The position numbers and the translations under genes were made by a program. A stretch of DNA of 64,000 bases from NCBI GenBank assembly GCA_039640505.1, contig CP046865.1, positions 3,439,661-3,503,660 on the forward strand, in the 5' to 3' direction. Numbering within the stretch: position 1 is the first letter of the stretch; each line of letters starts with the position of its first letter. The notes under the pieces were generated by a model, which was given only the letters and a program-made list of their open reading frames with translations, was not told the DNA's origin and made no database searches. This document shows, piece by piece, positions 33,377 through 50,873 of this stretch. The stretch is from Rhodobacteraceae bacterium Araon29. GTDB taxonomy: Bacteria > Pseudomonadota > Alphaproteobacteria > Rhodobacterales > Rhodobacteraceae.

Positions 33377-33664
33377 TTGGCAATTCCTCAACTGTTGGTT
33401 CATGACCACAAAGACAATGTAGGTGTCGTAGTCGTTGAAGGTCTGACGGCTGGAACAGAAATGTTATGTGTGATTACGCATGATAATTCCGACTTTAAGC
33501 TTACCGCAAATGCAGACATTCCAATTGGGCACAAAGTTGCACTTAAGCCCTTGAAAGAGGGCGATACTGTTTTCAAATACGGTGAAGATATCGGAAAAAT
33601 GGTCGGGTCTGCTGATGTCGGCGATCATTTACATACCCACAACTGCAAAACAAAACGGTGGTAG
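33377..33664 (+). CDS. suyA: (2R)-sulfolactate sulfo-lyase, small subunit
   Basis: A 95-residue SAF-domain protein (UxaA N-terminal family). The sequence [20 protein letters not shown] and the ending [10 protein letters not shown] are what I recall for SuyA rather than the altronate dehydratase small domain. SuyAB cleaves (R)-3-sulfolactate to pyruvate and sulfite; the small subunit is reported at about 8-10 kDa. The start is a TTG at 33377, because AAGGAG at 33364-33369 is seven bases upstream. Upstream ATG codons at 33341 and 33359 lie before or inside that site. suyB starts five bases after its stop. Confidence 0.83.
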
Positions 33665-33669
33665 CTCCA

Positions 33670-34851
33670 ATGGCACTAGATTTTTCTAATCAATCAATTA
33701 ATGCATGGCGCCGCGAAAATGGCCGCGTCGGTGTTCGGAACCACGTTGTGATTCTTCCAGTGGATGACATTTCTAATGCAGCCTGTGAAGCTGTTGCAAA
33801 TAATGTCAAAGGAACAATGGCCCTTCCACATGCTTATGGGCGCTTGCAGTTTGGTGAAGATCTTGACCTGCATTTTCGCACCATGATTGGGACTGGCGCA
33901 AACCCAAATGTTGCTGCTGTTATTGTCATTGGTATTGAACCCGAATGGACCAAGGTTATCGTCGATGGGATCGCCAAAACCGGCAAGCCTGTTGAAGGGT
34001 TTTCAATCGAACAAAAGGGCGATTTCGAAACCATCCGTCAAGCCAGTTGGAAGGCCAAGGAATTCGTTCATTGGGCGTCTGAACTTCAAAAAGAAGCCTG
34101 CGGCCTGTCTGAGCTTTGGGTATCCACGAAATGTGGTGAAAGCGATACCACAACCGGTCTGTCGTCCTGCCCAACTGTTGGAAATATGTATGATAAGCTT
34201 CTTCCACATGGGCTTTATGGCTGCTTTGGGGAAACATCTGAAATCACCGGCGCTGAGCATATTTGCGAAAAGCGGGCTGCAAATCCTGAGGCCGCTGCTA
34301 AGTTTCGGAAAATCTGGCAGGCGTATCAGGACGATGTTATTTTCGCGCATCAAACAGATGATCTGTCTGATAGCCAACCTACCAAAGGAAATATACTTGG
34401 TGGCTTGACGACAATCGAAGAAAAAGCTTTGGGAAATCTTGAAAAAATTGGACGCACATCGACCTATATTGATGCGATGGGACCAGCAGAAGCACCCGAA
34501 AAAGGCCCTGGTCTGTACTTTATGGACAGCTCGTCAGCAGCAGCAGAGTGCGTTACGCTCATGGCGGCAGGTGGCTATGTGATTCACACCTTCCCCACAG
34601 GTCAGGGCAATGTGGTTGGCAATCCAATCGTTCCTGTTATCAAGATATCTGGCAACCCGCGCACCCTGCGCACTATGGCGGAGCATATTGATGTCGATGT
34701 CACCGGCGTTTTGACCCGTGAAATGACTATTGACCAAGCAGGTGATAGCTTAATCGATATGATCCAGCGGACTGCAAATGGACGGTATACAGCGGCGGAA
34801 GCTCTAGGCCATCGGGAGTTTTCAATGACAAAACTCTATCGTTCAGCATAA
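33670..34851 (+). CDS. suyB: (2R)-sulfolactate sulfo-lyase, large subunit
   Basis: A 393-residue UxaA C-terminal family protein. The N-terminus [20 protein letters not shown], the Cys motif [13 protein letters not shown] and [25 protein letters not shown] agree with SuyB as I remember it. The family also contains altronate and galactarate dehydratases, which this resembles less, and no uronate genes are nearby. Desulfonation yields pyruvate and sulfite. A GTG at 33658 is in frame, but the ATG at 33670 just after the suyA stop, with GGTGG upstream, is the better start. A strong terminator follows. Confidence 0.83.
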
Positions 34852-34924: not shown

Positions 34925-35578
34925 TCACATCGAAGCAAGCGCGTGCTCAACACCTTTGCGTATGTGCCCTTCTAATGCATTGACAGCTTTGCCGGCATCG
35001 CGTGCGAGGGCAGCCTCAAAGACGGTTTTGTGTTCGGCAACTGCCTCTTCGCCTCTGTATGTAAGCACAAGCATCTGGTAACGAAGATACTTATCATAGA
35101 TTGTGGCGTGTAAACTTAGAAGGTTTCGGGAATTACACGCCTGAATAAGTGCTTGGTGAAACTCCCAATCATAACGCTTCCAAGTTTCTTTTTCGGAATC
35201 ATCTCCCGAGAGCATGCGCTTTTCCATTATGTGTAACTTGTGGTGGGCCGCCACCAAATTGCCTTCCCAATCAGCGTCGCCGTTTTGTACAGAAGCGGCA
35301 AGCGCATGGCATTCAAGCAAAATCCTCAGGTTGGTAATTTCGATCAAGTCCTCGCGTGACACTTGAGTTACAAAAAACCCACGCTGTTCTTCGGCGTCTA
35401 CAAAGCCTTCACTTGCCAATCTATTTAGGGTTTCACGCAGCGTCGAGACGCTAGCAGAATATCGTCCTTTTAAAGCATCAAGTTTAAGCTTTACACCAGG
35501 AGCGAGCTCTCCAAAAATAATATCTTTTTTGATTTTTTCAAAAGTTGAAGTACCGACTGTATTTTGAGGTTTGCCCAT
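34925..35578 (-). CDS. GntR/FadR-family (FCD) regulator of the adjacent catabolic island
   Basis: A 217-residue protein. The N-terminal winged helix includes IKKDIIFGELAPGVKLKLDALK and ASVSTLRETLNRLASEGFV. A helical FCD effector domain (residues 80-215) holds the likely metal ligands in WEFHQALIQACNS and the C-terminal His residues (EHKTVF, LEGHIRKG). FCD regulators usually sense organic acids. A GTG at 35590 is in frame, but AGGTGA eight bases upstream favours the ATG at 35578. It is divergent from the Gfo/Idh-TRAP genes, so it probably controls them. Confidence 0.88.
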   Translation of the reverse strand: MGKPQNTVGTSTFEKIKKDIIFGELAPGVKLKLDALKGRYSASVSTLRETLNRLASEGFVDAEEQRGFFVTQVSREDLIEITNLRILLECHALAASVQNGDADWEGNLVAAHHKLHIMEKRMLSGDDSEKETWKRYDWEFHQALIQACNSRNLLSLHATIYDKYLRYQMLVLTYRGEEAVAEHKTVFEAALARDAGKAVNALEGHIRKGVEHALASM

Positions 35579-35792
35579 GGAGAATATCACCTGACATTTT
35601 TATAGTTTACAAAAAAATACAATTTTATCAGAGATATTTCAAGACATTGCTTTATAGGGTAAAAATTAAAACGCCATATATTATTGTCAATCTCATTTTT
35701 TCCAGTTAGCCTAGGCCTTCAGAGTTATCAATCAGATTCTGGCAGTGGCGCCCGGAGATCAAAACAGAAAGCTAATGGTGGGATTCAAGTTA

Positions 35793-36905
35793 ATGGCTAA
35801 AGTCACGGCATCAAAAGAAAATACCGCCAAAATTGGTGTCAATACAAGCACACGCTTAGCCATCGTTGGTATCGGGCTTGTGGGAAAGCGTCATGCAGAC
35901 GCGATTAACCAGCTTAGTCAAACTAGTCTATCCGCTATAGTGGATCCAAACCTTGAAGGAAAAAATTACGCCGTTTCCCATAACATACCTTGGTATGAGA
36001 CACTCTCTGACATGCTTGCAAACGAAATGCCAGACGGCGTGATATTGGCCACTCCGACGCCACTTCATGTCGAGCAAGGTTTGGAATGTATCAAAAAGGG
36101 GCTTCCAGTCTTGATTGAGAAACCACTTGCCAATTCAGCCTTTGAAGCCAAAGAACTGGTTGGCTTGTCAGAAGAATTAGGCGTCCCGCTGGTAGTAGGT
36201 CATCATCGACGCCACAACCCACTTATCCAAAAAGCAAGTGAGGTTATCAAGAGCGGGCAAATTGGGAAAATTCGCGCGGTCCATATGCAGTGCTGGTTTT
36301 ATAAACCTGACCATTATTTTGATGTTGCACCTTGGAGGAAGCTAAAAGGCGCTGGTCCTATATCGGTCAATCTGGTTCATGATGTAGACTTAATGCGCCA
36401 CCTCTGTGGAGAAATTGTGAGCGTCCAAGCAGAAGCCACACCCTCAACCCGAGGCTTCGAAAATGAAGATGTAGCAGCAGCCGTCCTTCGCTTTGAAAGT
36501 GGAGCCATTGGAACAATCACTGTTTCCGATTCTATATCATCTCCCTGGAGTTGGGAAATGACGTCTCAGGAATATCCGATCTATCCATCCACCTCTGAAA
36601 GCTCCTATTACATCGGAGGAACACTAGGCTCTCTTTCGGTACCTGATTTGATGCTTTGGACCCACCAAGAAAAACCAGATTGGTGGACGCCCATTTCCGG
36701 AGAAACTTTGTCGCGACAGGTATCTGACCCTCTAATTAACCAAATTAACCACTTTGCCAACGTAATAGCTGGGAATGAAGAGCCACTTGTTAGCGGCCGC
36801 GAAGGATTACGAACATTGCAAGTTATCGAAGCAATCCAAATTGCTGCTGAAAAAAAAGCAGGTGTTCAGGTAAATGATTTATTCGAAGCCAACCCCATTA
36901 GCTAA
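35793..36905 (+). CDS. Gfo/Idh/MocA-family oxidoreductase (first of three)
   Basis: About 370 residues. The NAD(P)-binding Rossmann fold begins RLAIVGIGLVGKRHADAIN, and the family EKP motif is in GLPVLIEKPLANS. The catalytic-region His is likely in ISVNLVHDVDLMRHL. These enzymes oxidise hydroxyls of sugars, cyclitols or related ring acids. The frame opens at GTG 35745 with in-frame ATGs at 35775 and 35793; GGTGGGA nine bases upstream favours 35793. It is the first gene rightward from the FCD regulator and sits 154 bases before the TRAP binding protein. Confidence 0.87.
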   Translation: MAKVTASKENTAKIGVNTSTRLAIVGIGLVGKRHADAINQLSQTSLSAIVDPNLEGKNYAVSHNIPWYETLSDMLANEMPDGVILATPTPLHVEQGLECIKKGLPVLIEKPLANSAFEAKELVGLSEELGVPLVVGHHRRHNPLIQKASEVIKSGQIGKIRAVHMQCWFYKPDHYFDVAPWRKLKGAGPISVNLVHDVDLMRHLCGEIVSVQAEATPSTRGFENEDVAAAVLRFESGAIGTITVSDSISSPWSWEMTSQEYPIYPSTSESSYYIGGTLGSLSVPDLMLWTHQEKPDWWTPISGETLSRQVSDPLINQINHFANVIAGNEEPLVSGREGLRTLQVIEAIQIAAEKKAGVQVNDLFEANPIS

Positions 36906-36947: not shown

Positions 36948-37059
36948 TAACAATTAATCTCCGATATTTTCATTAACATATTGCAATTTTAAAAAAATAA
37001 TGTCACTACTGACTCGGACCTTTTCGCTATGTCCAATTTTTCACGGGAGGACTCAATCA

Positions 37060-38067
37060 ATGATCACCAACTTCACACGTCGTGCGGCAATTGCTTCACT
37101 GACAGCGGCCAGCATTGCTGCGACCGCCGCCGTACCATCTTTCGCGGCAGACATTACATTTACTTTGGCCACTTCAGGCTCAGAAACTGACCAACGCTCA
37201 GTTGCAATGGCTGAAGTCTTTGCGCCAATGGTTGCCGGTTTTGCGGATTATCAGGTAGGCTACAATGGCACACTTTTCGCACAGGGCACCGAATTGGAAG
37301 CCATCAGCCGTGGCAACCTTACTATGTCTATCGCCTCCGCACAGGAACTGGCTCAATTCTTTCCTGAGTTTTCAATCTTTGCCACGGGCTATGTTCACCA
37401 AGATGCAGCCCACCAAGTGCGCGTGTTCAACAATCCTTTGATGGATCCGTTTAAGAAAACAGTTGAAGACGAACTTGGCGTAAAATTGCTAAGTGTTATG
37501 TATCTAGGCCGCCGTCACGTAAACCTTCGCCAAACGCGGGATGAAGTGAATGTGCAAACGCCTGCTGATTTGGCCGGCATTAATTTACGTATGCCTGGCA
37601 CGGATGCATGGCAATTCTTGGGTGCGGCTTTGGGCGCATCTCCTACTCCACTTGCGTTTTCTGAAGTCTACACTGCGCTTTCTACAGGTGCCGTTGACGG
37701 TCAAGACAACCCACTACCTACAGTTGTAGACAAAAAATTCTACGAAGTGACTAAGCAAATTGCCCTTACGGCGCACTTGGTCGACCTTAACTACATCGCT
37801 TTCTCGAAAGAAACTTGGGATAGTCTGACAAGCGAACAGCAAATGACAGTTCAGCGCGCAGCCGATGCGGCCGCGGCATACGGACGTCTGAAGCAGCTTG
37901 ACAAAGAAAATAATCTTGCAGACTTTATTCGTAGTCAGGGTGTAGAAATCTATACACCTGACCTGAAAGCGTTCCGTGAGCACGTGCAAGCACAATATGT
38001 GGGCTCGGAAGCAGCGGCCAGCTGGCCTGCAGGTGTACTGGATCAAATTAACGCTCTGGGTAACTAA
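37060..38067 (+). CDS. TRAP transporter substrate-binding protein (DctP type)
   Basis: A 335-residue periplasmic protein. The ATG at 37060 has GGGAGG nine bases upstream and gives a clear signal peptide (residues 1-29, cleavage after PSFA). The DctP fold is evident, with the conserved substrate-clamping Arg at about residue 177 in LAGINLRMPGTDAW. That Arg binds a carboxylate in nearly all TRAP proteins, so the ligand is probably an organic acid. The downstream AFSEVYTALSTGAVDGQDNP is the family signature. It is the first gene of the dctPQM set. Confidence 0.93.
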   Translation: MITNFTRRAAIASLTAASIAATAAVPSFAADITFTLATSGSETDQRSVAMAEVFAPMVAGFADYQVGYNGTLFAQGTELEAISRGNLTMSIASAQELAQFFPEFSIFATGYVHQDAAHQVRVFNNPLMDPFKKTVEDELGVKLLSVMYLGRRHVNLRQTRDEVNVQTPADLAGINLRMPGTDAWQFLGAALGASPTPLAFSEVYTALSTGAVDGQDNPLPTVVDKKFYEVTKQIALTAHLVDLNYIAFSKETWDSLTSEQQMTVQRAADAAAAYGRLKQLDKENNLADFIRSQGVEIYTPDLKAFREHVQAQYVGSEAAASWPAGVLDQINALGN

Positions 38068-38097: not shown

Positions 38098-38703
38098 ATG
38101 AAAGCAATTTCCAAATGGTTCTCCCGCAGCACTGAATTTATCGCCGCTATGATGTTAGCGGCGATATTTTTTACTTTTCTTATACAAATTTTTACCCGAT
38201 ATGCCGCCAAAATCGCGTGGTTAATGCCCATTCCACCAATTTCTGATTGGATGTCTTCCCTTCAACCACTCGGCTGGACTGTAAATCTAATTTCATTGCT
38301 TTGGGTCTGGGTGGTATTTTTTGGCTCTTCTTTCATCGTGCGCGAACGCGACCATGTGACATTTGATATTTTATATTTGGCAGCACCCTTCAAAGTGCGC
38401 CGCATACTAGCTTATATTTCTGCCATTTGTCTTATTGGTATGATGATTTATGCCATGCCGGCAATGTGGGACGCCGTGTTTGCCAATCGGTTGATGGAAT
38501 TAAAGAAAATTCAAACGCTTCGCATACCAATCACGGGCGATAAAATCGCAATCAAGTGGCTGTTTGCCTCATTCTTTTTGCTAATGGTTGCAACCATTCT
38601 GCGTTATCTTTGGCGACTGGTCACAATAGCGCGCTACGGACCGCCAGAGACTGAGTTGGAGGATATCATCTCAGCGGAACATGGAGCAGGAGGCGACCAA
38701 TGA
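38098..38703 (+). CDS. TRAP transporter small permease (DctQ type)
   Basis: A 201-residue membrane protein with four helices. The typical DctQ residues FGSSFIVRERDHVTFDIL lie between helices two and three. It anchors the large permease and is needed for transport driven by the Na+ gradient. It starts 30 bases after the binding-protein stop and overlaps the large permease start by four bases (ATGA). Confidence 0.92.
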   Translation: MKAISKWFSRSTEFIAAMMLAAIFFTFLIQIFTRYAAKIAWLMPIPPISDWMSSLQPLGWTVNLISLLWVWVVFFGSSFIVRERDHVTFDILYLAAPFKVRRILAYISAICLIGMMIYAMPAMWDAVFANRLMELKKIQTLRIPITGDKIAIKWLFASFFLLMVATILRYLWRLVTIARYGPPETELEDIISAEHGAGGDQ

Positions 38704-39995
38704 GCATAGAATTAACACTTGGAATTATGGCTCTGTTTGGTATGGCCGCAATTGGAACACCTGTTGCGTTCTCTATTTTGATGGGCGTGATCGTATACCT
38801 GGGCGTTGCAGGACAAGACATCGCTATTGCTGGCGAAACTATGGTTCAGCGTCTATTTGACGGATTTTTATTGCTAGCTGTGCCGCTCTTTATCGTTTCA
38901 GCAAATATAATGAATGCGGGATCAATTTCTGATCGGTTACTTAATTTTTGTGTTGCTGTGGTTGGCCGCTTCCGGGGTGGCATGGGGCACGTAAATGTGG
39001 TGGCATCACTGATTTTTTCAGGGATGTCTGGTTCAGCTGTGGCCGATGCTGCAGGTATCGGCAAGATTATCATCGATATGATGGTAAAAAGCGGAAAATA
39101 TACCCGTGGATATGCTGCCGCAATCACCGCGGCAACCGCTACAATTGGCCCAATCATACCGCCTTCTATTCCAATGGTGATCTATGCGCTTGTCTCGGGC
39201 GCATCCATCGCTGATCTGTTCCTAGGCGGTATCATTCCTGGTCTTCTTATGGGATTGGTACTCATGGGAATGAATACAATTATTTCCCATCGCAGGAACT
39301 TTGGCGCCGAAGATCCCGTGCCCTTGCGGCAACTTCCGCGCCTTACTGTTCAGGCAACACCCGCGCTTTTAATGCCATTCATCCTTTTATTTTGCTTATA
39401 TAGCGGCATCACGACACCCACAGAAGCTGCTGCAATCGCCGCGCTTTATGCTCTTATTATCGCAGCAGGGCTCTATCGGACGATCCGTATTAAAACTCTC
39501 TATGAAATTTTTGTGGAAAGTGCCCGGGCTGCAGCATCGGTTGGATTGGTCATCGGTGCATCGATGATACTTACTTATATTGTCATTCAGGAAAACATCC
39601 CTCAGGCCTTATCAGCAAGTCTAGAAGGTGCAGATATAAGTCCCTTAGTTTTCCTAATCCTTATTAATATCTTAGTCCTACTCTTGGGATGCATCCTTGA
39701 TGCTACAGTCATCATTCTTGTGATTGTTCCACTGTTTATTCCGACATGTGAAGCGCTTGGTATTGACCTTGTGCATTTTGGTGTTGTTGTCGTTGTAAAC
39801 TCAATGATTGGTTTAATAACGCCTCCTTACGGTATTTTGCTTTTTGTAATCAACGCAGTCACAGGTATCCCGCTGAAAGAGATAATAAGTGAAGTCTGGG
39901 TCTTCCTGGGTGTGCTTATTTTCGCACTTCTTTTGATGATACTCGTACCAGAGATTGTACTTTGGCTACCTCGTGTCTTTGGATATCAAGGATGA
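38700..39995 (+). CDS. TRAP transporter large permease (DctM type)
   Basis: A 431-residue protein with about 12 helices forming the Na+-coupled channel. Family motifs visible include GMSGSAVADAAGIGKI, ATIGPIIPPSIPMVIYAL and the C-terminal GLITPPYGILLFVINAVTG. It overlaps the small permease upstream and the QuiC1-like fusion downstream by four bases each, so uptake and the first catabolic enzymes are translationally coupled. Confidence 0.94.
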   Translation: MSIELTLGIMALFGMAAIGTPVAFSILMGVIVYLGVAGQDIAIAGETMVQRLFDGFLLLAVPLFIVSANIMNAGSISDRLLNFCVAVVGRFRGGMGHVNVVASLIFSGMSGSAVADAAGIGKIIIDMMVKSGKYTRGYAAAITAATATIGPIIPPSIPMVIYALVSGASIADLFLGGIIPGLLMGLVLMGMNTIISHRRNFGAEDPVPLRQLPRLTVQATPALLMPFILLFCLYSGITTPTEAAAIAALYALIIAAGLYRTIRIKTLYEIFVESARAAASVGLVIGASMILTYIVIQENIPQALSASLEGADISPLVFLILINILVLLLGCILDATVIILVIVPLFIPTCEALGIDLVHFGVVVVVNSMIGLITPPYGILLFVINAVTGIPLKEIISEVWVFLGVLIFALLLMILVPEIVLWLPRVFGYQG

Positions 39996-41896
39996 GCCAT
40001 CTCTCAATTGCGACCACCGCCATTCCCGGAGATTTATCCGAAAAGCTGGAAAAAATTGCGGCTGCTGGATTTCATGGGGTGGAATTATATGAACCGGATT
40101 TCATCAGTTTTGATGGTGCTGCTGAAGATATTCGTAAATTATTGGAAGTTTACAATCTTCAAATTACTCTTTTGCAACCCTTCACTGACTTTGAGGGATT
40201 AATCGGCGATCAGCGCAATCAGGCTCTGAAAAGATTGGAAAGTAAGTTCGATCTGATGCAGAGCCTTGGAACGGACTTACTACTTGTGTGTTCCTCATGC
40301 CATCCCGACACCTCAGCTGACAGAAATGTGATCCTATCCGATCTCGCTGAACTTTCGAAACGCGCAGCTGAACGCAACCTAAAGGTCGCCTACCTTGCCT
40401 TGCCTTGGGCACGCCATATACAAACTGAAATGCAGGCGCTTGATATTGTGCAAAAGATTGACAGTCCAAATTTCGGGTTGGCCCTAAATAGCTTGTTTAG
40501 CCTTGCAGATGGATCAAAGCCAGCACGGCTTAGGGATATTCCAGGGGATAAGGTATTTCATGTTCAATTGTCCGATGCACCATTTCTAGGCTCTGACATC
40601 CAACATCTAAAGCAATACTTCGGGATGCTTCCAGGTCAGGGTGTGCTAAACCTAGCAGGATTTATTAGAGTTCTCGCAAAAAACGGCTACTGTGGAACCT
40701 GGTCACTAGCGTGTTTGGGAGAGGCTTCCAGACAAAAACAATATACAAACTTTACTGCCGACGGTTATCGGGCGCTGGTGAATTTACTAGACCAAGTTAT
40801 GCGAACAGATCCAAGTTTTGAATTTGGCATCCCAACACTTCCAGAACGAATTTATGCCAATGGATTCGAGTTCATTGAATTCGCCTGCGACGAAGCATCC
40901 GGAACGCAGCTCACGCAACTGCTTTCTTCTCTTTGTTTCAGGATGGAGCGCAGACATGTGTCAAAATCAGTGGAACTCTGGCGGCAGGGTGCCGTCAATA
41001 TTGTGGTAAATACCGAAAAAGAAGGTTTCGCGCATTCAGCTTTTTTGAGTCACGGTCCATCAGTTTGTGACATGGGGTTACGAGTAAAAGACGCTGCAAA
41101 AACTGTTGAGAGGGCATCAACGCTTGGTGCTAAGGTGTTTTCACAACCGGTTGGTGTCGGTGAATTGAATATTCCTGCAATCCGCGGCGTTGGTGGGGAT
41201 GTTATTCATTTTATCGATGAAAAATCCAATTTGCACCGGGTCTGGGATATCGAGTTTGACCCTGCGGAAAAAACCCAAGCCGTGCCGCCTGCTGGACTGC
41301 GCCGCATAGATCACATCGCTCAAACAATGAAATATGATGAAATGCAAAGTTGGCTTCTATATTTCGTTTCAACTTTTGAAATGGAAAAGTCGTCCGTGGT
41401 TGATGTGGCTGATCCATCAGGCGTAGTATTAAGTCAAGTCATTGAAAGCCCAGAAGGAGAGGTGCGCTTAAACCTTAATGGGGCGGACTCTCACCATACA
41501 TTTGCGGGGGCATTTCTTGCTGAAAGAGTAGGTGCGGGAGTTCAGCACATGGCTTTTCTAACAGACGATATTTTTGAAACATCTGATCAGCTAAACTCTT
41601 CAGGTTTTCCACGTTTGGAAATTTCAGCCAATTATTATTCTGATCTTGAAGTTTTATTTGACCTTGATACCGATTTTGTCTCAAAGCTAAAAGAAGGAAA
41701 TATTTTATATTCCAAGCACGACAAAAGTGAATACTTCCAAATCTACTCAACCCCTATTTTTGATGGGTTTTTCTTCGAAGTTGTACAACGCAAGAACGGT
41801 TACCAAGGTTATGGTGCTCGCAATGCACCAACACGCCTTGCAGCCCAAAGAAAGTACAATACTCCTAATGGAAAAGCTTCAGAAATGAGAACCTAA
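39992..41896 (+). CDS. QuiC1-like fusion: degenerate dehydroshikimate-dehydratase domain plus HPPD-like domain
   Basis: A 634-residue two-domain protein. Residues 1-275 align with the TIM-barrel 3-dehydroshikimate dehydratase of QuiC1. As I recall, Pseudomonas QuiC1 uses Glu134, Asp165, Gln191 and Glu239 as metal ligands. Here the aligned residues are Leu135, Asn166, Gln192 and Ala240, so three of four are lost. Residues 280-634 are a 4-hydroxyphenylpyruvate-dioxygenase-like (VOC) domain with intact His441, His519 and Glu596 for iron. The protein is probably not a dehydratase but may be an oxygenase. The start at 39992 overlaps dctM (ATGA); the frame's upstream extension lies inside dctM. Confidence 0.85.
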   Translation: MSHLSIATTAIPGDLSEKLEKIAAAGFHGVELYEPDFISFDGAAEDIRKLLEVYNLQITLLQPFTDFEGLIGDQRNQALKRLESKFDLMQSLGTDLLLVCSSCHPDTSADRNVILSDLAELSKRAAERNLKVAYLALPWARHIQTEMQALDIVQKIDSPNFGLALNSLFSLADGSKPARLRDIPGDKVFHVQLSDAPFLGSDIQHLKQYFGMLPGQGVLNLAGFIRVLAKNGYCGTWSLACLGEASRQKQYTNFTADGYRALVNLLDQVMRTDPSFEFGIPTLPERIYANGFEFIEFACDEASGTQLTQLLSSLCFRMERRHVSKSVELWRQGAVNIVVNTEKEGFAHSAFLSHGPSVCDMGLRVKDAAKTVERASTLGAKVFSQPVGVGELNIPAIRGVGGDVIHFIDEKSNLHRVWDIEFDPAEKTQAVPPAGLRRIDHIAQTMKYDEMQSWLLYFVSTFEMEKSSVVDVADPSGVVLSQVIESPEGEVRLNLNGADSHHTFAGAFLAERVGAGVQHMAFLTDDIFETSDQLNSSGFPRLEISANYYSDLEVLFDLDTDFVSKLKEGNILYSKHDKSEYFQIYSTPIFDGFFFEVVQRKNGYQGYGARNAPTRLAAQRKYNTPNGKASEMRT

Positions 41897-42026: not shown

Positions 42027-42848
42027 ATGAGCAACTATAATGAACAACGAGCCGTAAGGCATTGGTGGCGTACATCAATCATCGACATGGAACCCGGCAA
42101 GATCGCGTTTCGAGGGCGGCCCATCGAGGACTTGATTGGAAATGTCACATTTCCGCAAATGATCTGGCTAATGGTTCGTGGTGATTTACCAAGCCGAAAG
42201 CAAAGCGAATTACTGGAAGCCGCTTTGGTGGCAGGCGTTGATCACGGCCCTCAAGCACCTTCCATCGCAGCCGCAAGAATGGCGGCAACGTGCGGCGTTG
42301 GACTTAATAATGCAATGGCCACTGCTGTAAACATGCTCGGTGATGTCCATGGGGGCGCTGGCGAACAATGTGCCGAACTGTACTATTCAATTGCAGCAAA
42401 AATGGATGACGGCATCGCATTGGATATGGCTGTCATTGAGGGGTTAGATGAATGGCGCGCAAAATTTGGAAAATACATCTCTGGTTTTGGGCATCGGTTT
42501 CATAAACCTGTCGACCCACGCGCGCCACGCCTTATGGCATTGGTAAAAGAAGCAGCTAAGGAAGGCACCGTAAATGGGCAGTTTGCAGAAATTGGAGAGG
42601 CAGTAAGAGAACGCATCGGCAAACAACGCAACAATCGACCAATCGCTATGAATATTGATGGTGCAACAGCAGTAATATTCTGTGAGCTTGGTTTTCCATC
42701 GGCTTTATCACGGGGATTATTTTGTCTATCTCGCTCTGTTGGTGTGCTGGCCCACGCATGGGAACAAATGCAGCAAGGTGGAAGAAATAAAGGTCCAATG
42801 CCACCAGATTTTCTACCTCTTTATGAGCCCGCAGAAAATGATGAATAA
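42027..42848 (+). CDS. Citrate synthase-like protein (citryl-CoA lyase type)
   Basis: A 273-residue short citrate-synthase-fold protein, much smaller than true citrate synthase (about 430). Catalytic residues remain recognisable: His in DVHGGAGEQ, His in GFGHRFHKPVDPRA and Asp in AMNIDGATAVIF. Proteins of this size are annotated as citryl-CoA lyases and cleave or form acyl-CoA plus oxoacid adducts. A very strong AAAGGAGG site precedes the ATG. It may handle the CoA product of the pathway, for example an acyl-CoA cleavage; this is inference. It overlaps the next gene. Confidence 0.82.
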   Translation: MSNYNEQRAVRHWWRTSIIDMEPGKIAFRGRPIEDLIGNVTFPQMIWLMVRGDLPSRKQSELLEAALVAGVDHGPQAPSIAAARMAATCGVGLNNAMATAVNMLGDVHGGAGEQCAELYYSIAAKMDDGIALDMAVIEGLDEWRAKFGKYISGFGHRFHKPVDPRAPRLMALVKEAAKEGTVNGQFAEIGEAVRERIGKQRNNRPIAMNIDGATAVIFCELGFPSALSRGLFCLSRSVGVLAHAWEQMQQGGRNKGPMPPDFLPLYEPAENDE

Positions 42849-44028
42849 TGTACATAAACCTTTCCAAATTGGTCTGATTGGAACGGGTCGCATAAGTGAC
42901 ATCTATATTCAAACTTGTGCCAAATTTGATGAATTGGAAATTGTTTCATGCGGCAGCCTAGATGTCGAAGAAAGCCAAAAAAAGGCTAAAATGTATGGTA
43001 TTCCCAAGGTTCAGAGCCCGGAAGAAATTCTTGCTGACCCGAATATTGATTGTATTTTGAACCTGACAATACCTGCCAGCCATGCGTCACTAACCCTAAA
43101 AGCACTTGAAGCAGGAAAGCATGTCTATTCTGAGAAACCTTTTGTAACGGATGTCTCAGATTGTCGCCGTATATTGGATCTAGCGAGTTCTAAAAACCTT
43201 AAGGTAGGAAATGCACCTGACACCTTTTTTGGTGGTCGGTGGCAAACTGTTCGTAAATTATTGGATAAACAGGTCATTGGAAAGCCAACGGGTGTGATGG
43301 CTTTTGCAGGGACCCATGGAGTTGAACGGCATCATCCAAATCCAGATTTCTACTATCAAACCGGCGGTGGCCCACTGCTAGATCTTGGGCCCTATTACCT
43401 GACCGCCATGGTATTTTTATTGGGACCAATATCAAAAGTTAGTGGAATGGCGCGTAAAACATTCGATCAGCGAATGATAGAAAATGGAAAGCGCTACGGT
43501 GAAAGAATAAAGGTAGAGGTCGATACCCACTCTCTGTCTATGCTTGAGTTTCAAAATGGTTCAATCGGCTCTATGACCCTTAGTTTCGACATTTGGGATA
43601 GTGAAACTCCACGATTGGAAATTTATGGCGAAGACGGAACAATCTGCATTCCCGATCCCGATCCTGTGCATGGCGCCAATATTTTTCAAGGGCCCGTTTT
43701 GTACCGAACCCGCAGTGAGTCGCGCTGGGAATTTCAACCACGTCCAAAGGATCGAGGGGATTGGTTAGTGGCAGAAAATACCCATAGCTTTAATCAAGAT
43801 AGCCGGGGGGTAGGATTATTAGACCTATACTATGCAGTACGCGATGACCGAGCCGTGCGCGCAAGCGCAGAACTGGCTGCCCATGTCTGCGAGGTCATGC
43901 ACGGTATTTTAGATGCGCCAAGTCAAGGCGGATTTGTTTCCGTAAAATCTACCTGTGATGCCCCAGAAATTCTCCCGGAAAATTTTCCGGCTTCCGAGAA
44001 CCAAGATCATGAAAGGCATGGAATATGA
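42838..44028 (+). CDS. Gfo/Idh/MocA-family oxidoreductase (second of three)
   Basis: About 396 residues, starting at ATG 42838 or 42841 so that it overlaps the citryl-CoA-lyase-like stop. The longer open frame back to 42682 lies inside that gene and is not used. The Rossmann motif is FQIGLIGTGRISDIYIQT and the EKP motif is HVYSEKPFVTD. In the C-terminal domain, GGGPLLDLGPYYLTAM replaces the usual DIGxH, with Tyr where the His normally sits. It overlaps the next gene by four bases (ATGA). Confidence 0.87.
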   Translation: MMNNVHKPFQIGLIGTGRISDIYIQTCAKFDELEIVSCGSLDVEESQKKAKMYGIPKVQSPEEILADPNIDCILNLTIPASHASLTLKALEAGKHVYSEKPFVTDVSDCRRILDLASSKNLKVGNAPDTFFGGRWQTVRKLLDKQVIGKPTGVMAFAGTHGVERHHPNPDFYYQTGGGPLLDLGPYYLTAMVFLLGPISKVSGMARKTFDQRMIENGKRYGERIKVEVDTHSLSMLEFQNGSIGSMTLSFDIWDSETPRLEIYGEDGTICIPDPDPVHGANIFQGPVLYRTRSESRWEFQPRPKDRGDWLVAENTHSFNQDSRGVGLLDLYYAVRDDRAVRASAELAAHVCEVMHGILDAPSQGGFVSVKSTCDAPEILPENFPASENQDHERHGI

Positions 44029-44684
44029 GCGTCGAAACTCTTCAATTTTCTGAACCGTTTTTCACCGTTCGGCTTTTGATGGATGAAGCCAACTATAACG
44101 TATCTGTTCGATCAATAATCCTAAATCTTTCCGAGGAACCCATCGCTGTGCAAGACCAGAAAATAGGCCATTTGAACTCAGTCATCTTGTGCAACACGCC
44201 CATCCACAGACTGAAACACTGCATTGTGATAGAACGATTTGATGAAAACCCAAACCAAGAGGAATTGTTTGAAGACGTTAGGAAGATATGGCCCTCTGCC
44301 TGGGATGTTCGAAAAGAGCCACGTTTGAAAGGGGTAAGCCACTACATGTCTCCCAAGGTTTGGATTAACCAGCTAGGTCTTTCAATGTATCACTCGGCCT
44401 CCGTACCGCTTAAGGTCGGGCTGCATAAATTTCATGATTTTTGCCCTGTGCCAGGATTTCGGGAAGTCCATACCCAGATTGTTGGGTTTGGTAAAATGCA
44501 GCAGTGCTTAGAAAAAGATTTGCGCACGCTTTATCTTGAAGAAACTATGGCGCCAGGCTGCACTCACCGGCCGATGTATGATGCACAGGGAAATTACCCT
44601 TGGCACCAATATGAAACTATCACGCCTAGCATTTTCATGGCAGTGGAAATGCTCCCTGAGGGCGCATCACCACCCACGTTTTAG
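44025..44684 (+). CDS. Unknown 219-residue protein, possibly cupin-like
   Basis: I do not recognise this family. It is soluble, with no signal peptide. The C-terminal third has a His/Glu pattern that could be a cupin metal site: HTQIVGFGKMQQ, EETMAPGCTHRPMY and YPWHQYETITPS. An earlier HKFHDF adds two more histidines. Its position, coupled by overlap to one Gfo/Idh gene and 11 bases before another, argues that it is a pathway enzyme, perhaps an isomerase, as IolB is for inositol. Function is not established. Confidence 0.7.
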   Translation: MSVETLQFSEPFFTVRLLMDEANYNVSVRSIILNLSEEPIAVQDQKIGHLNSVILCNTPIHRLKHCIVIERFDENPNQEELFEDVRKIWPSAWDVRKEPRLKGVSHYMSPKVWINQLGLSMYHSASVPLKVGLHKFHDFCPVPGFREVHTQIVGFGKMQQCLEKDLRTLYLEETMAPGCTHRPMYDAQGNYPWHQYETITPSIFMAVEMLPEGASPPTF

Positions 44685-44695
44685 GAATTAATGCT

Positions 44696-45880
44696 ATGAA
44701 TATTTTACCAGAACACATAAATTTTGATGGGCCTTTTCCGAAATTAAATCGGCGGTTGAGATTGGGTGTATTGGGCGGGGGTCGCGTTTCAACCCTGCAA
44801 GCTGCTGCAGCTCGTATGAGCAACCATTGGGACATTGTAGCCGGCGCTTTGTCCTCTGATCCTGTGCGAGCAGCCGCTCAAGGTTCAGACTGGTTCTTTA
44901 GTCCCGATCGCAGTTATGCTTCGTTTGAAGACATGGCACGGATAGAGGCCTCTCGTCCTGATGGGATTGACGCGGTCATGGTCACAGCGCCCAATCATGT
45001 GCATTTTGAAGGCTCTAAAGCTTTCATTGAAGCCGGTATAGATATTTTGTGCGACAAACCCCTAACCAATGACTTTTCTCAGGCCCAAGAATTGGTGCGC
45101 CTAAGCGGGCAAGCCGGTGTTGTGTTCGGGGTTTCTTATGTGATGTCCTGTTTTCCGATGATCCGGCAAGCACGCGAACTTGTAAGCTCTGGGACTCTTG
45201 GCAAAATCAACCAAGTACATGTTGAGTTTCTACAAGATTGGATGACACCAGAAGATATGGGCGCCGCTGAGCATGTAAAATGGCGTCTCGATCCTGCAAA
45301 GTCCGGTAAAACAAGCTGTGTGGGTGATATTGGCACACATGCCGCTCATCTAGCCAGTTTTGTATCAGGATTGAAGATGACGGACCTGCGCGCGGAATTT
45401 CATGTTTGCGGATCGCCAAAACCTCTTGAAGATACAGCTTTTATGATGACGCGATTTGAGGGAGGCATTCCCGGCACCTTGATGATAACCCGCCTTGCAC
45501 CCGGCAACCGGGGCGGGTTGCGTTTACGTATTTTTGGAAGCGAGGGCGGGCTTGAATGGGATCTCGAAAATGCCGATCAATTGAAGTTAAATCGGTTTGG
45601 CGAAGCGGATCGCGTTATCTCTCGAGGAAATGGTCATGGTGTTTCACCAGCGACAGAGCGCTTAATTCGCACCGCTCGAGGTTTTCAAGAAGGCATAATT
45701 GAAGCTTGGGCGAATCTATATACAGAATTTGCAATGGCTGTGGCGGCTGGCAAAGACGGCGTGGCAGTTCCAGATAATTGGTTGGCTTTGCCCTCTGTCA
45801 AAGACGGAGCTGACGGCGTGCGTTTTATAGAAGCAACGGTTATTTCAAACGACAATGGTGGGCGCTGGGAGAAAATTTAG
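44696..45880 (+). CDS. Gfo/Idh/MocA-family oxidoreductase (third of three)
   Basis: A 394-residue protein. The Rossmann fold begins LRLGVLGGGRVSTLQAAAAR. The EKP motif is a DKP variant in DILCDKPLTND, which is tolerated in this family. The C-terminal domain has the standard catalytic context CVGDIGTHAAHLASF. It differs clearly from the other two paralogues, so the three probably act on different positions or intermediates. It is the last gene of the first transcription block; an AT-rich promoter-like gap follows. Confidence 0.88.
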   Translation: MNILPEHINFDGPFPKLNRRLRLGVLGGGRVSTLQAAAARMSNHWDIVAGALSSDPVRAAAQGSDWFFSPDRSYASFEDMARIEASRPDGIDAVMVTAPNHVHFEGSKAFIEAGIDILCDKPLTNDFSQAQELVRLSGQAGVVFGVSYVMSCFPMIRQARELVSSGTLGKINQVHVEFLQDWMTPEDMGAAEHVKWRLDPAKSGKTSCVGDIGTHAAHLASFVSGLKMTDLRAEFHVCGSPKPLEDTAFMMTRFEGGIPGTLMITRLAPGNRGGLRLRIFGSEGGLEWDLENADQLKLNRFGEADRVISRGNGHGVSPATERLIRTARGFQEGIIEAWANLYTEFAMAVAAGKDGVAVPDNWLALPSVKDGADGVRFIEATVISNDNGGRWEKI

Positions 45881-45991
45881 ATCCCAAGAGTTCCTACGAT
45901 ATATTTATAGTTGATATAAAACAAAATATCATATATTTTATAATTAATCATATTAAACAACTTGTATCATATTGATTCCGGGGCCCACCTG
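45881..45991 (+). promoter_or_regulatory. AT-rich promoter region of the second catabolic block
   Basis: This 111-base gap is strikingly AT-rich and contains an inverted repeat TGATAT-AAAACAAA-ATATCA (45912-45931). No coding is expected; the frame from TTG 45962 lacks a ribosome-binding site. It probably carries the promoter for the TIM-barrel to aldolase genes. Confidence 0.45.
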
Positions 45992-46870
45992 ATGACCGAG
46001 CGAAGGGAAAATAATGCGCCCAAGAGCCTTTATTCTTTAGCACATCTGACTTTGATAGGTGTGACGCCACCCGAGCTTGTTTATATTGCGGCGCGCGCTG
46101 GGTATGACGCAGTTAGCCCAAGATTTATACCGATGCATGTGCCCGGAGAGTTCACCCAATCTCCTGTCGGGAAATCTCAGGTTCAAGCAACAAAAACAGC
46201 TCTGAAAACCACAGGACTTAAAGTTCTTGACGTTGAGCTTGCCCGTTTAACAGAAGATGTAGATCCCCGTAATTTTATTCCTGCGCTGGAACTCGGTGGA
46301 GAATTGGAAGCCAAGCGAATGATTATGTCAGCTTGGACAAAAACAAGAGATGACCGAAATTTTCTAATCGACGTTTATGCAGAAACTTGTGATCTGGCAC
46401 GCCCCTATGGAATAACCGTTGATTTGGAATTTCCAACCTTTTCACGTCTTAGAACGCTTGATGAAGCACTTGATATCGTACGCGCTGCAGACCGGCCGAA
46501 TGGCGGTATTTTGGTAGATACCTTGTACCTGCATCTTAGCCGAGTTGATCTTGCCGAACTTCTGCATATACCGAGCGAGCTTTTCCACTTCTTGCATGTT
46601 TCAGATTGCCTGCCAGGTATTGCCGACACAAGAGAAGGAATGATCCAGCTTGCCCGTGACGCGCGCCTTTATCCAGGTGAAGGGTGGATCGACTTCAAAG
46701 GCATCATCGAACGCATGCCACCCGTTGATTACTCAATTGAGTTGCCAAACAAAGCGCGGATTAAAGAGCTTGGATACGAAGAACATGCACGCCGCTGCCT
46801 TCAGCATGCGAAACGCACATTTGGTGCAGCCCGCTCCGAGCGCCGTCAAAAGACGGCAATGGCGGTTTAG
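45992..46870 (+). CDS. Sugar phosphate isomerase/epimerase-like TIM-barrel protein
   Basis: About 292 residues of the AP_endonuc_2 (xylose isomerase-like) fold. Unlike the QuiC1-like fusion, its metal site is complete: Glu146 in VDLEFPTF, Asp176 and His181 in LVDTLYLHLSR, His202 in FLHVSDC and Glu250 in YSIELPN. Related enzymes are isomerases, epimerases or dehydratases (IolE, dehydroshikimate dehydratase) on polyols and cyclic keto compounds. The ATG at 45992 is preferred to a TTG at 45962. It leads a four-gene block with aldehyde dehydrogenase, ThDP enzyme and aldolase. Confidence 0.85.
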   Translation: MTERRENNAPKSLYSLAHLTLIGVTPPELVYIAARAGYDAVSPRFIPMHVPGEFTQSPVGKSQVQATKTALKTTGLKVLDVELARLTEDVDPRNFIPALELGGELEAKRMIMSAWTKTRDDRNFLIDVYAETCDLARPYGITVDLEFPTFSRLRTLDEALDIVRAADRPNGGILVDTLYLHLSRVDLAELLHIPSELFHFLHVSDCLPGIADTREGMIQLARDARLYPGEGWIDFKGIIERMPPVDYSIELPNKARIKELGYEEHARRCLQHAKRTFGAARSERRQKTAMAV

Positions 46871-46894
46871 GAATATTATAATATGAGGATAATT

Positions 46895-48304
46895 ATGGGC
46901 AAAGAACTGTCTGCAGAAGAACGCAATCTGGCCAAGGAGATGTTGGACCGCGCGCGCGCGGCAATGGCAAAAATTGAAGATTGGAGTCAAAAAGACCTAG
47001 ACCGCCTTTCACAAGCTATTGCTTGGTATGCGGGCAATGAAAAAACATTTACAAGATTGGCTGAGCAAGGTGTTGATGAAAGTGAGATCGGGGATCGTTC
47101 AGGCAGACCAGCGAAGCGATTCAAAATACACATGGTTCTGCGTGACGTTCTACGCACACCGTCAACTGGCATCGTGGAAATAGATGAGCCACGCGGATTG
47201 GTAAAATATGCCAAGCCAGCAGGCGTTATAGCTTCTCTCATTCCGATGACCAACCCGGCAATGACACCACCAGTCACGGGTGTTTCTGCAGCAAATGCCC
47301 GAAATGCAGTTATTTTCTCACCACATCCCCGCACTGCGCGCACCACCTTTGAAATGGTTGAAGTCATGCGGACTGCCTGCAAAGCTGTCGGTGCGCCTAA
47401 GGATTTGTTTCAAGCAATACTCAAACCGTCAATTCCGCTGACACAGCATTTGATGGAGATTTGCGATTTAACGCTGGCCACTGGCGGCAAGCCAATGGTT
47501 AAGGCCGCCTATAGTTCAGGAAAGCCAGCTTATGGTGTGGGTGCCGGCAATTCATCTATCGTAATTGACGAGACTGCTGATATTTCTATTGCAGCAGAAA
47601 ATACGCGAATTTCAAAAACATCCGACTTTGGGTCGGGCTGCTCAGCAGATGGAAATATCATCATACAAAAATCAATATACGATGATATGGTCAAGGCTTT
47701 GATAGTAGAGGGTGGTTACCTGTGCAGCGAAGAAGAAAAGGAAATGCTGCGGCAGGCTATGTGGGATGAAAAAGGCAATCGGACCTTTCCAACAATTGCC
47801 TGCCGACCACAACAAACCGCTGAGGTCGCTGGCTTCACGATCCCTGATGACCGCAAGTTTCTAATGGTTGAAAATCAAGGTCAAATCGGGAAGGAACATA
47901 AATTCTCTGGCGAAAAACTAACGACGTTGATGGCGCTTTATCACTTTGATCAATTTAAGGATGCTCTGGAAACAGTTCGGGCTATTTACAAGGTTGCCGG
48001 AACCGGCCATTCCTGCGGCATCTACAGTCACAATGACAGCCATATTGATGCTCTTGCTCATGTTGCGCCTGTCAGCCGCATGATGGTGCGTCAACCACAA
48101 TCCAAGGCAAATGCCGGTTCTTGGACAAACGGTATGCCAATGACATCTAGTTTGGGCTGCGGCATCTGGGGCGGCAATATCACCAACGAAAATGTCACTA
48201 TGAAGCATATGATGAACTACACCTGGGTCAGCCGTCCAATTCCAGAGGACCGGCCCTCGGAACAAGAACTCTTTGGAGAGTTTTTTGGACAGGAGGTCGT
48301 ATAA
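46895..48304 (+). CDS. CoA-acylating aldehyde dehydrogenase (SauS/acetaldehyde dehydrogenase-like)
   Basis: A 469-residue aldehyde dehydrogenase of the CoA-acylating group. The catalytic Cys is in SDFGSGCSADGNIIIQ. KPAGVIASLIPMTNPAMTPP and YSSGKPAYGVGAGNSS are shared with SauS, the acylating sulfoacetaldehyde dehydrogenase of sulfoacetate degradation, and with the N-terminal part of AdhE. It would oxidise an aldehyde to its CoA thioester using NAD(P)+. The ATG at 46895 follows GAGGATAATT, better placed than the ATG at 46883. It overlaps the ThDP gene by one base. Confidence 0.87.
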   Translation: MGKELSAEERNLAKEMLDRARAAMAKIEDWSQKDLDRLSQAIAWYAGNEKTFTRLAEQGVDESEIGDRSGRPAKRFKIHMVLRDVLRTPSTGIVEIDEPRGLVKYAKPAGVIASLIPMTNPAMTPPVTGVSAANARNAVIFSPHPRTARTTFEMVEVMRTACKAVGAPKDLFQAILKPSIPLTQHLMEICDLTLATGGKPMVKAAYSSGKPAYGVGAGNSSIVIDETADISIAAENTRISKTSDFGSGCSADGNIIIQKSIYDDMVKALIVEGGYLCSEEEKEMLRQAMWDEKGNRTFPTIACRPQQTAEVAGFTIPDDRKFLMVENQGQIGKEHKFSGEKLTTLMALYHFDQFKDALETVRAIYKVAGTGHSCGIYSHNDSHIDALAHVAPVSRMMVRQPQSKANAGSWTNGMPMTSSLGCGIWGGNITNENVTMKHMMNYTWVSRPIPEDRPSEQELFGEFFGQEVV

Positions 48305-50091
48305 TGGAAAAGGCTGGCATAACCGGAGTTACAAAGACCGTTGCTGAACACATCATCGATTTTTTGGAACGGCGTGATGTAAAACATGTATTTGGACTGT
48401 GCGGTCATACAAATATCGCTGTGCTTGCTGCGATGGCGGAAAGCCCCATTGATTTTGTAACTGTCAGACACGAACAAATTGCCAGCCATGCGGCAGATGC
48501 TTATGCGAGGGTGAATGGTCAGGCCTCGGTGGTGCTGTCACATTTGTCACCTGGGTTGACCAATTGCGCGACCGGCGTGGCAAATGCGGCAATGGACTGC
48601 ATTCCTATGGTGGTGATAGCAGGCGATATCCCAACCCACTATTATGGAAAGCATCCACATCAGGAAGTGAATTTGCATGCAGATGCCCAGCAGTATGAAA
48701 TCTATCGGCCCTTTGTAAAACGGGCTTGGCGGGTGGATCGAGCCGAGTTGATGGCCGAGATATTGGAAAAAGCATTTCACTTGGCCGAAAGTGGGCAACC
48801 CGGTCCAGTCCTTGTTAACGTGCCAATGGACATTTTTTCAGAAAAAATTTCATCCACGACATTTGATCGGATAAAGTCAAACACCCGCAACCTCATAAAA
48901 CCGTCTATAGATGATAAAACCGCCCGTCATATTGTGACACAATTGGCGCAGGCGAAAACGCCAGTAATCTATGCGGGGGGCGGAATATTACTCGCGCAGG
49001 CGTCAAGCGAACTTCAAGAGTTTGTAGATCATATGCAAATTCCTGTAGCCCATTCTTTAATGGGCAAAGGTGCCTTGCGCGATGACCACCCAATGGTCTT
49101 GGGAATGACCGGATTTTGGGGAACAGAATTGGTAAACCAAACCTGCCTAAACGCAGATTGGCTTTTTGCCATCGGGACACGTTTCAAAGAGGCAGACTGC
49201 TCATCATGGTATCCAGGCTATACTTTTAATATCCCGGGAACCAAGGTGATTCATGTGGACATAGAGCCTTCGGAAATCGGGCGAAACTATCCGGTTGAAA
49301 TTGGGGCGGTTGCAGATGCCAAATTGACCTTGGCAACCCTTACGCGTGTTGCCAAAGAAGTATATCCGCAGGGATTTAAGCGCACTGAAATTTTGGGAAA
49401 AATAGAAACTTTCAGGCGAGAATTCAAAGATGGTAATGCAGAGATGGCAACCAGCAATGCCTTTCCCATGATGCCTGAGCGCATTTTGGCAGAGACCAGA
49501 AGAGCGCTGCCTGAGGATGCTATTATTACCACCGACGTTGGCTGGAATAAAAACGGGGTGGGGCAACAGTTCGACATATTATCCCCAGGATCAATCCTAA
49601 CACCGGGTGGGTTTGCCACAATGGGATTTGGGCCACCCGCTGCCATTGGCGCGAAATTGGCGGCACCCAACCGCGTGGTGATTTCGCTGGTAGGAGACGG
49701 CGGTTTTGGCCAGAATCCTTCAATGCTTGCCACGGCTGTGGAGCGTGGGCTGGGAATTATTTGGTTGGTCATGAACAATAACGCTTTTGGCACAATTGCT
49801 GGATTGCAAAAAGCCCACTATGGATTAACCTACGGCACAACTTTTCCAGGCTCTGCTGAGGCTCCGACCAATGGGCCCGGCTATGCAGATATCGCGCGGG
49901 CTTACGGGGCAGACGGCATTCGAATTAGCTCGGCAGATGAGCTTTATCCAGCCTTATGTGCGGCAATCAAAACAGGTAAGCCAACAGTATTGGATATCCC
50001 AATGATCAATAATCCAACGCCAACCACAGGCCATTGGAATATTCTGGACATTTATACGCCAGAGGGCAATGTTTCACATGTATCCACCTGA
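48304..50091 (+). CDS. Thiamine diphosphate-dependent enzyme (acetolactate synthase-like), function unknown
   Basis: A 595-residue three-domain ThDP enzyme. The catalytic Glu is in FVTVRHEQIASHAADAYAR, and the ThDP-Mg motif runs from GDGGFGQNPSMLATAVERG to NNNAFGTI. N-terminal GLCGHTNIAVLAAM recalls the FGHGN segment of IolD, the inositol-pathway ring hydrolase. Sequence and motifs do not match sulfoacetaldehyde acetyltransferase (Xsc), oxalyl-CoA decarboxylase or IlvB closely. It could cleave a C-C bond in a dione or 2-oxoacid, producing the aldehyde used by the preceding dehydrogenase. It is tightly coupled to that gene (TAATG). Confidence 0.85.
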   Translation: MEKAGITGVTKTVAEHIIDFLERRDVKHVFGLCGHTNIAVLAAMAESPIDFVTVRHEQIASHAADAYARVNGQASVVLSHLSPGLTNCATGVANAAMDCIPMVVIAGDIPTHYYGKHPHQEVNLHADAQQYEIYRPFVKRAWRVDRAELMAEILEKAFHLAESGQPGPVLVNVPMDIFSEKISSTTFDRIKSNTRNLIKPSIDDKTARHIVTQLAQAKTPVIYAGGGILLAQASSELQEFVDHMQIPVAHSLMGKGALRDDHPMVLGMTGFWGTELVNQTCLNADWLFAIGTRFKEADCSSWYPGYTFNIPGTKVIHVDIEPSEIGRNYPVEIGAVADAKLTLATLTRVAKEVYPQGFKRTEILGKIETFRREFKDGNAEMATSNAFPMMPERILAETRRALPEDAIITTDVGWNKNGVGQQFDILSPGSILTPGGFATMGFGPPAAIGAKLAAPNRVVISLVGDGGFGQNPSMLATAVERGLGIIWLVMNNNAFGTIAGLQKAHYGLTYGTTFPGSAEAPTNGPGYADIARAYGADGIRISSADELYPALCAAIKTGKPTVLDIPMINNPTPTTGHWNILDIYTPEGNVSHVST

Positions 50092-50102
50092 TAGGAATTA
50101 TC

Positions 50103-50873
50103 ATGGACCTACGAAAAAATCGTTTTAAAGCCGCATTAAACGAGGGCCGCCATCAATTGGGCATTTGGAGCGGTTTAGGCGGACATACCGCCCCGGAAAT
50201 ATTAGCGACTTGCGGATTTGATTGGGTTTTAATTGATGCTGAGCATAGCCCAATGGAGCCAATCGATGTTTTGCCAGCGCTTCAGGCCATCTCAGGGTAT
50301 CCCGAAGTTACGCCGATTGTCAGGCCTGCGGATCACAGCGCAAGCGTTATAAAACGATTGCTAGATATGGGTGCACAGTCTCTGCTAATTCCTTTCATTC
50401 AAAATCGTCAAGAAGCGGAAGAGGCAGTTAAATCAATAAGATATGCTCCAAAAGGCATTCGCGGAATGGCTGGAATTACACGTGCAAACCGTTTTGGACA
50501 AGTTCAAGATTACGCCACGCGCGCCAATGAAGAGATTTGTTTGCTTGTCCAAGCCGAAACAGCTGAGGCGTTGGAAAACCTTGAGGATATTGCCTCTGTA
50601 GATGGGGTAGATGGGGTGTTTATTGGACCAGCTGATCTGGCCGCAAGCATGGGATTTGTCGGCCAACCTGACCACCCAGATGTAGTAAAAGCCTGCGAAG
50701 ATGCTATTGCGCGCCTAGGTGTAATAGGATGTCCGGCAGGGATCCTAACACTGAACGAAAATTTTTCTAAGCGCTGCATAGAGCTCGGCACGCTTTTCAC
50801 CGCCGTCGGAGTTGACTTAGTTATGGTTGTTGATGGCGCTAAAGAATTGCGGCAACGTTTCAATCACGTTTAA
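50103..50873 (+). CDS. HpcH/HpaI-family class II aldolase
   Basis: A 256-residue aldolase starting at ATG 50103, with AGGA upstream. The family is clear from LGIWSGLGG, FDWVLIDAEHSPMEPIDVLP, the metal ligands in LVQAETAEALENLEDI and VDGVFIGPADLAASMG. These enzymes reversibly split 4-hydroxy-2-oxoacids into pyruvate (or oxaloacetate) and an aldehyde. The substrate here is unknown. As the last gene of the catabolic island it probably performs the terminal cleavage to central metabolites. Confidence 0.9.
   Translation: MDLRKNRFKAALNEGRHQLGIWSGLGGHTAPEILATCGFDWVLIDAEHSPMEPIDVLPALQAISGYPEVTPIVRPADHSASVIKRLLDMGAQSLLIPFIQNRQEAEEAVKSIRYAPKGIRGMAGITRANRFGQVQDYATRANEEICLLVQAETAEALENLEDIASVDGVDGVFIGPADLAASMGFVGQPDHPDVVKACEDAIARLGVIGCPAGILTLNENFSKRCIELGTLFTAVGVDLVMVVDGAKELRQRFNHV

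Follow-up and report, generated by a model that had tools for sequence, protein, structure and literature searches.

A QuiC1-type fusion with a lost dehydratase metal site and a conserved HPPD-like iron site, encoded beside a citryl-CoA lyase-like gene

The locus and the fusion protein

The window, a 64,000-nucleotide stretch of the genome of Rhodobacteraceae bacterium Araon29, carries a two-domain fusion gene within an operon. The features are listed by window coordinates and strand.

34925–35590, minus strand: GntR-family regulator; relatives up to 59% identical adjoin intact fusions in quinate-type operons
35745–36905, plus strand: Gfo/Idh/MocA dehydrogenase, shared by almost all clade operons (absent from the covered part of L054)
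37000–38067, plus strand: TRAP solute-binding protein DctP, 46–49% identical to DctP of operons with an intact fusion and aroQ
38098–38703, plus strand: TRAP small permease DctQ, assigned by its position between DctP and DctM, with no NCBIfam hit
38700–39995, plus strand: TRAP large permease DctM
39992–41896, plus strand: QuiC1-type fusion of a degenerate dehydroshikimate-dehydratase barrel (about aa 1–275) and an HPPD-like non-haem iron domain (aa 288–612)
39992–40816, plus strand: degenerate TIM-barrel half of the fusion, with Leu135, Asn166, Gln192 and Ala240 at the metal positions
40853–41827, plus strand: HPPD-like half of the fusion, which keeps His441, His519 and Glu596 together with Ser481, Asn496, Gln518, Gln583 and Phe594
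42027–42848, plus strand: citryl-CoA lyase-like protein (NF004864)
42769–44028, plus strand: Gfo/Idh/MocA dehydrogenase (optional module)
44025–44684, plus strand: 219-aa protein with no family match, conserved His/Glu and a weakly cupin-like fold (optional module)
44696–45880, plus strand: Gfo/Idh/MocA dehydrogenase (optional module)
45962–46870, plus strand: stand-alone TIM-barrel isomerase/epimerase-like protein (IolI-like)
46883–48304, plus strand: acylating aldehyde dehydrogenase, SauS-like
48304–50091, plus strand: ThDP-dependent enzyme (acetolactate synthase/2-oxoacid decarboxylase superfamily)
50106–50873, plus strand: HpaI/GarL-type aldolase, which adjoins the operon in the window and in genome G057 only

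The fusion reading frame opens with an ATG at 39992 that overlaps the dctM stop codon, and it runs intact for 634 aa. Its product aligns almost end to end with QuiC1 of Pseudomonas putida (PDB 5HMQ; residues 5–623, E = 8e-146), in agreement with the initial annotation, which had described a QuiC1-like fusion with a constant residue offset of one; that offset is correct on our alignment. A predicted model built from 25 relatives (mean pLDDT 88.7) has 5HMQ as its best PDB match (TM 0.88–0.90, 39% identity), and its second half matches an HPPD structure. The barrel plus HPPD-like architecture of the two-domain dehydroshikimate dehydratases, which ordinarily convert plant acids to protocatechuate, is present. 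The protein scores below the cut-offs of both the NCBIfam QuiC1 equivalog NF042435 (555 bits; cut-off 1200) and the HPPD family TIGR01263 (201 bits; cut-off 277). A pseudogene was ruled out by the open frame and by purifying selection, which in close pairs acts on each of the two halves, and misalignment or chance by the constant offset, the presence of relatives at all identity levels and the TM 0.9 match.

The citryl-CoA lyase-like protein scores 440 bits against the equivalog NF004864 (cut-off 261) and keeps the catalytic His/His/Asp on alignment to 6HXP. The 219-aa protein gave a poor model (pLDDT 64) with weak cupin matches only; it has many invariant His and Glu residues and, where present, is always flanked by two Gfo/Idh genes.

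Loss of the metal site and reversed constraint

On the alignment with 5HMQ, the QuiC1 metal positions Glu134, Asp165, Gln191 and Glu239 correspond to Leu135, Asn166, Gln192 and Ala240, exactly as first called; only Gln192 remains. The earlier claim of a lost metal site is thus borne out, and the loss is wider: Arg64, His168, Ser206 and Arg210, which belong to the published active-site list of QuiC1 (PMC7442255), are Thr65, Phe169, Lys207 and Gly211. Dehydroshikimate dehydratases without metal are inactive (PMC9324987). Approximately 80 fusions were collected by searches of relatives and of one-per-species genomes. Glu135, Asp166 and Glu240 (window numbering) are invariant in all 57 ordinary fusions, whereas no member of the core of the dead-site clade (n = 17) retains Glu135 or Asp166, and at position 240 the core members have Ala, Gly or, in L041 and L078, Asp. 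The loss of the site is therefore not a matter of chance. At the level of residues and family scores, the fusion fails as a dehydroshikimate dehydratase. Intact acidic ligands elsewhere in the barrel, which by the initial annotation would have refuted its claim, were looked for as compensating ligands; on the strand that held the old site, His190, beside Gln192, is the one new invariant residue able to bind metal. It is invariant in the clade and, as the sole candidate new ligand near the old site, could support some other barrel function. Other charged barrel residues are fixed in the clade as well, for example Asp173, Arg179 and Asp182.

Dead-site fusions occur in about twenty species, including members of Ruegeria, Roseibium, Labrenzia, Nioella, Tateyamaria, Cognatiyoonia and Pacificoceanicola and several MAGs. 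A clade of such fusions had been anticipated and it exists: when the C-terminal halves are placed on a tree, all 20 dead-site rows fall on a single branch (SH-aLRT 90; 100 for 19 of them). This branch is nested within the intact fusions, so the loss of the metal site is derived. L054, sister to the remaining clade, keeps Arg65, His169 and Ser207 but has Leu135, Asn166, Gly211 and Asn240, and by its residues looks transitional. The barrel is partly lost in L016, L060 and L066 (the deletions in L016 and L060 span the 207/211 region) and barely recognizable in L101, L102 and L152, in each case with an intact iron site. L101 and L102 have only ∼ 23% N-domain identity, yet they are encoded in the clade operon, and so is L152, which has diverged to a similar degree. 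In one Afifella MAG a dead-site fusion (L041) coexists with an intact one (L056), suggesting separate functions. L021 (genome G014), a divergent fusion (37%) that falls outside the clade, carries Glu/Asn/His/Glu at the metal positions.

Within the clade, the usual pattern of constraint is reversed. The N-terminal half is the less conserved one in 128 of 128 clade-core pairs (mean identities 53 vs 70%) and the more conserved one in 855 of 855 ordinary pairs (71.5 vs 56%); shared ancestry makes these pairs non-independent, but the pattern has no exception. In closely related clade pairs dN/dS is low in both halves, that is, under purifying selection, which argues that the barrel is not simply decaying. 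The suggestion that the two domains have exchanged roles, with a dead dehydratase as scaffold for an active oxygenase, is supported by the reversed constraint, by barrel deletions beside an intact iron site and by an operon mostly lacking dehydratase-partner genes (see below). However, ‘scaffold’ may be too simple a word for a barrel that is under purifying selection and has some clade-specific conserved residues. Asn166, Phe169, His190 and Lys207 are clade-specific and conserved in most members, and Gln192 and Asp195 are kept. Together with the selection on the N-terminal half, these residues would fit a barrel with a repacked pocket and a new function, as a metal-free isomerase or ligand sensor, attached to an oxygenase half that works as in ordinary QuiC1. 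We regard this as very improbable, since the barrel deletions in L016 and L060 take in the 207/211 region and since the diverged barrels of L101, L102 and L152 remain in the same operon.

In the C-terminal half the iron triad is intact, as first reported: His441, His519 and Glu596 correspond in the alignment to the iron-binding His161, His240 and Glu322 of HPPD, and Ser481, Asn496, Gln518, Gln583 and Phe594 to HPPD Ser201, Asn216, Gln239, Gln309 and Phe320. In all 19 clade members compared, neither the triad nor these pocket residues vary. The half thus shares fold, triad and pocket with HPPD (1CJX); it differs in its family score and in having Phe504 in the column of HPPD Gln225. Because Gln225 is lost, HPP is an unlikely substrate. 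A separate HPPD-type gene lies elsewhere in the same genome. The published role of the QuiC1-type C-terminal half, which the initial annotation had given correctly, is accessory or structural, in oligomerization or stability (PMC7442255, PMC9324987), and QsuB left protocatechuate unchanged (PMC7442255). P. putida QuiC1 has His at the positions equivalent to Gln518 and Gln583, where 54 and 51 of the 57 ordinary fusions, respectively, have the HPPD-like Gln; this enzyme may therefore misrepresent the C-terminal half.

A non-enzymatic fusion, a regulatory or structural subunit in which both halves are kept for assembly only, would agree with the proposed oligomerization role of the QuiC1-type C-terminal domain, for which no activity is known, and with the one operon that has no fusion (genome G258, see below). 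We consider it improbable, because the triad and pocket are invariant even where the barrel is partly deleted or hardly recognizable and because the C-terminal half is the most constrained part of the protein. We infer instead that the HPPD-like half is catalytically active. That a clade gave up its dehydratase while guarding the iron site indicates an independent function for the C-terminal half, and the operon suggests where its substrate may be sought.

The operon in the clade and around ordinary fusions

Nearly all clade fusions lie in one conserved operon, which comprises the GntR regulator, Gfo/Idh, DctPQM, the fusion, the citryl-CoA lyase-like protein, the TIM barrel, the acylating aldehyde dehydrogenase and the ThDP enzyme. 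The lyase, aldehyde dehydrogenase and ThDP genes are found in clade loci with enough flanking sequence (some contigs are too short to judge), except L060, whose covered sequence is without TIM-barrel, aldehyde dehydrogenase and ThDP genes. In L054 the transporter is of another kind, and the covered sequence shows no Gfo gene. Two additions are optional: the Gfo-219 aa-Gfo trio, and a quinate/shikimate dehydrogenase (closest solved relative 3JYO) that adjoins the operon in several members.

In contrast, neither citryl-CoA lyase nor acylating aldehyde dehydrogenase occurs in any of 36 ordinary loci, where the fusion instead has a shikimate dehydrogenase gene nearby and, in many cases, TRAP, aroQ and pca genes as well. 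For a dozen ordinary fusions the neighbouring TRAP genes are clearly related to those of the clade (DctP 46–49%, DctM 51–55%), and for some the GntR gene is too (up to 59%). aroQ and pca genes are absent from nearly all clade loci, and the window operon has no aroQ; the exceptions are L051, with pcaGH-like genes, and L078, with aroQ nearby. Since the GntR and TRAP relatives are shared, the clade operon resembles a quinate-type operon in which the aromatizing and pca part has been exchanged. Compared with QuiC1 and the Corynebacterium glutamicum enzyme QsuB, the clade thus retains the full-length architecture, fold, iron triad and a related TRAP/GntR context; it has lost the three acidic ligands and the equivalents of Arg64, His168 and Arg210, with reversed constraint and mostly without aroQ and pca genes.

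We searched the complete genome of the window for PF00775 (PcaGH) and PF02900 (LigB) and found no member of either family, so any protocatechuate from a working dehydratase would have no enzyme from either family to cleave it. This rules against protocatechuate being made by the fusion and cleaved elsewhere. PF00775 genes occur elsewhere in three of five clade genomes searched (G003, G045 and G057). A barrel that still works as a weak dehydratase with other ligands is hardly credible: Gln192 and Asp195 are kept, Asp240 is present in L041 and L078 and His190 is new, but Glu135, Asp166 and Glu240 are gone along with the equivalents of Arg64, His168 and Arg210, and there is no aroQ in the window operon and no PcaGH or LigB in the genome.

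Genome G258 (1.9 Mb; locus L153) has the GntR, Gfo, TRAP, citryl-CoA lyase, TIM-barrel, aldehyde dehydrogenase and ThDP genes and the Gfo-219 aa-Gfo trio, but no fusion gene anywhere. The fusion is therefore not strictly essential to the operon core, or is replaced by another gene; in L153 the 219-aa protein may take its place.

A candidate route through citryl-CoA

Taken together, we favour (at roughly 60%) a barrel that is no longer a metal-dependent dehydroshikimate dehydratase, joined to a working oxygenase half and encoded in an operon for a hydroaromatic acid. The barrel would be mainly structural, for oligomerization and perhaps ligand binding, and catalysis would fall to the HPPD-like half, acting as a non-haem Fe(II) oxygenase. 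Should this be true, ordinary QuiC1 enzymes, whose C-terminal half has identical iron-site residues, would carry a genuine oxygenase there too.

More tentatively, we propose that quinate- or shikimate-type acids are degraded without passing an aromatic stage, their carbon leaving via citryl-CoA in the form of acetyl-CoA and oxaloacetate. The TRAP transporter would take up the hydroaromatic acid, which Gfo/Idh or the quinate/shikimate dehydrogenase would oxidize. Because this pathway would omit the two dehydrations that lead to protocatechuate, the tertiary C1 hydroxyl and carboxyl groups of quinate would survive. We propose the iron domain, which alone in the minimal operon is clearly an O2-type enzyme, as the ring opener: with O2, it would cleave a C–C bond in a keto/enediol form. 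Further dehydrogenation would give a 2-oxoacid of the 4-carboxy-4-hydroxy-2-oxoadipate type, which the ThDP enzyme would decarboxylate to an aldehyde; the acylating dehydrogenase would convert this to citryl-CoA or an analogue, and the lyase would release acetyl-CoA and oxaloacetate. The lyase, acylating dehydrogenase and ThDP enzyme fit together because ring opening and removal of one carbon would leave the citrate skeleton. This is chemical reasoning of our own and not a result, although the route balances in carbon and oxidation state. We infer the substrate, the order of steps and the oxygenase activity; sequence fixes neither substrate nor order. If the pathway is right, it would be a new bacterial entry of abundant plant acids into central metabolism. 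Among open-licence papers we found none linking quinate to citryl-CoA.

It is also possible, though unlikely, that ring opening is hydrolytic and catalysed by the ThDP enzyme, in the manner of cyclohexane-1,2-dione hydrolase or IolD, and that the iron domain acts later, as an HPPD-type 2-oxoacid oxygenase on the ring-opened 2-oxoacid; the lyase would then yield acetyl-CoA and a 4-hydroxy-2-oxoacid to be split by the HpaI-type aldolase. The ThDP enzyme does match cyclohexane-1,2-dione hydrolase (2PGN) at 1e-49, but acetolactate-synthase-type enzymes match it better. The aldolase gene follows the ThDP gene in the window and G057 but lies outside the conserved core. Retention of Gln239 and Gln309 from the HPPD pocket is in keeping with a later-acting iron domain, and we retain hydrolytic opening as an alternative to oxygenative opening because G258 has the operon and no fusion.

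Catabolism of myo-inositol (Iol) combines Gfo/Idh, TIM-barrel, ThDP and acylating dehydrogenase enzymes in one operon, and the window operon shares these four kinds. However, none of the operon's proteins reaches an Iol equivalog cut-off, and the citryl-CoA lyase and the QuiC1-type fusion have no Iol counterpart. The lyase belongs to the same family as 6HXP and its alphaproteobacterial homologues and, like them, keeps the catalytic residues; in those homologues the lyase gene follows a CoA transferase gene, whereas in the window it is accompanied by the acylating dehydrogenase and the ThDP enzyme. By eye, the citryl-CoA lyase homologues of L156, L158, L160 and L164 adjoin a CaiB-type CoA transferase gene, and some are near tripartite tricarboxylate transporter or IclR genes; these loci probably serve uptake and cleavage of citrate-like acids. 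Elsewhere in the window, a gene pair at 26683–28985 resembles ectoine hydrolase and N-acetyl-diaminobutanoate deacetylase (DoeA/DoeB2-like), at scores below the cut-offs, and an altronate/galactarate dehydratase-like gene (33658–34851) lies upstream of the GntR regulator, outside the conserved operon.
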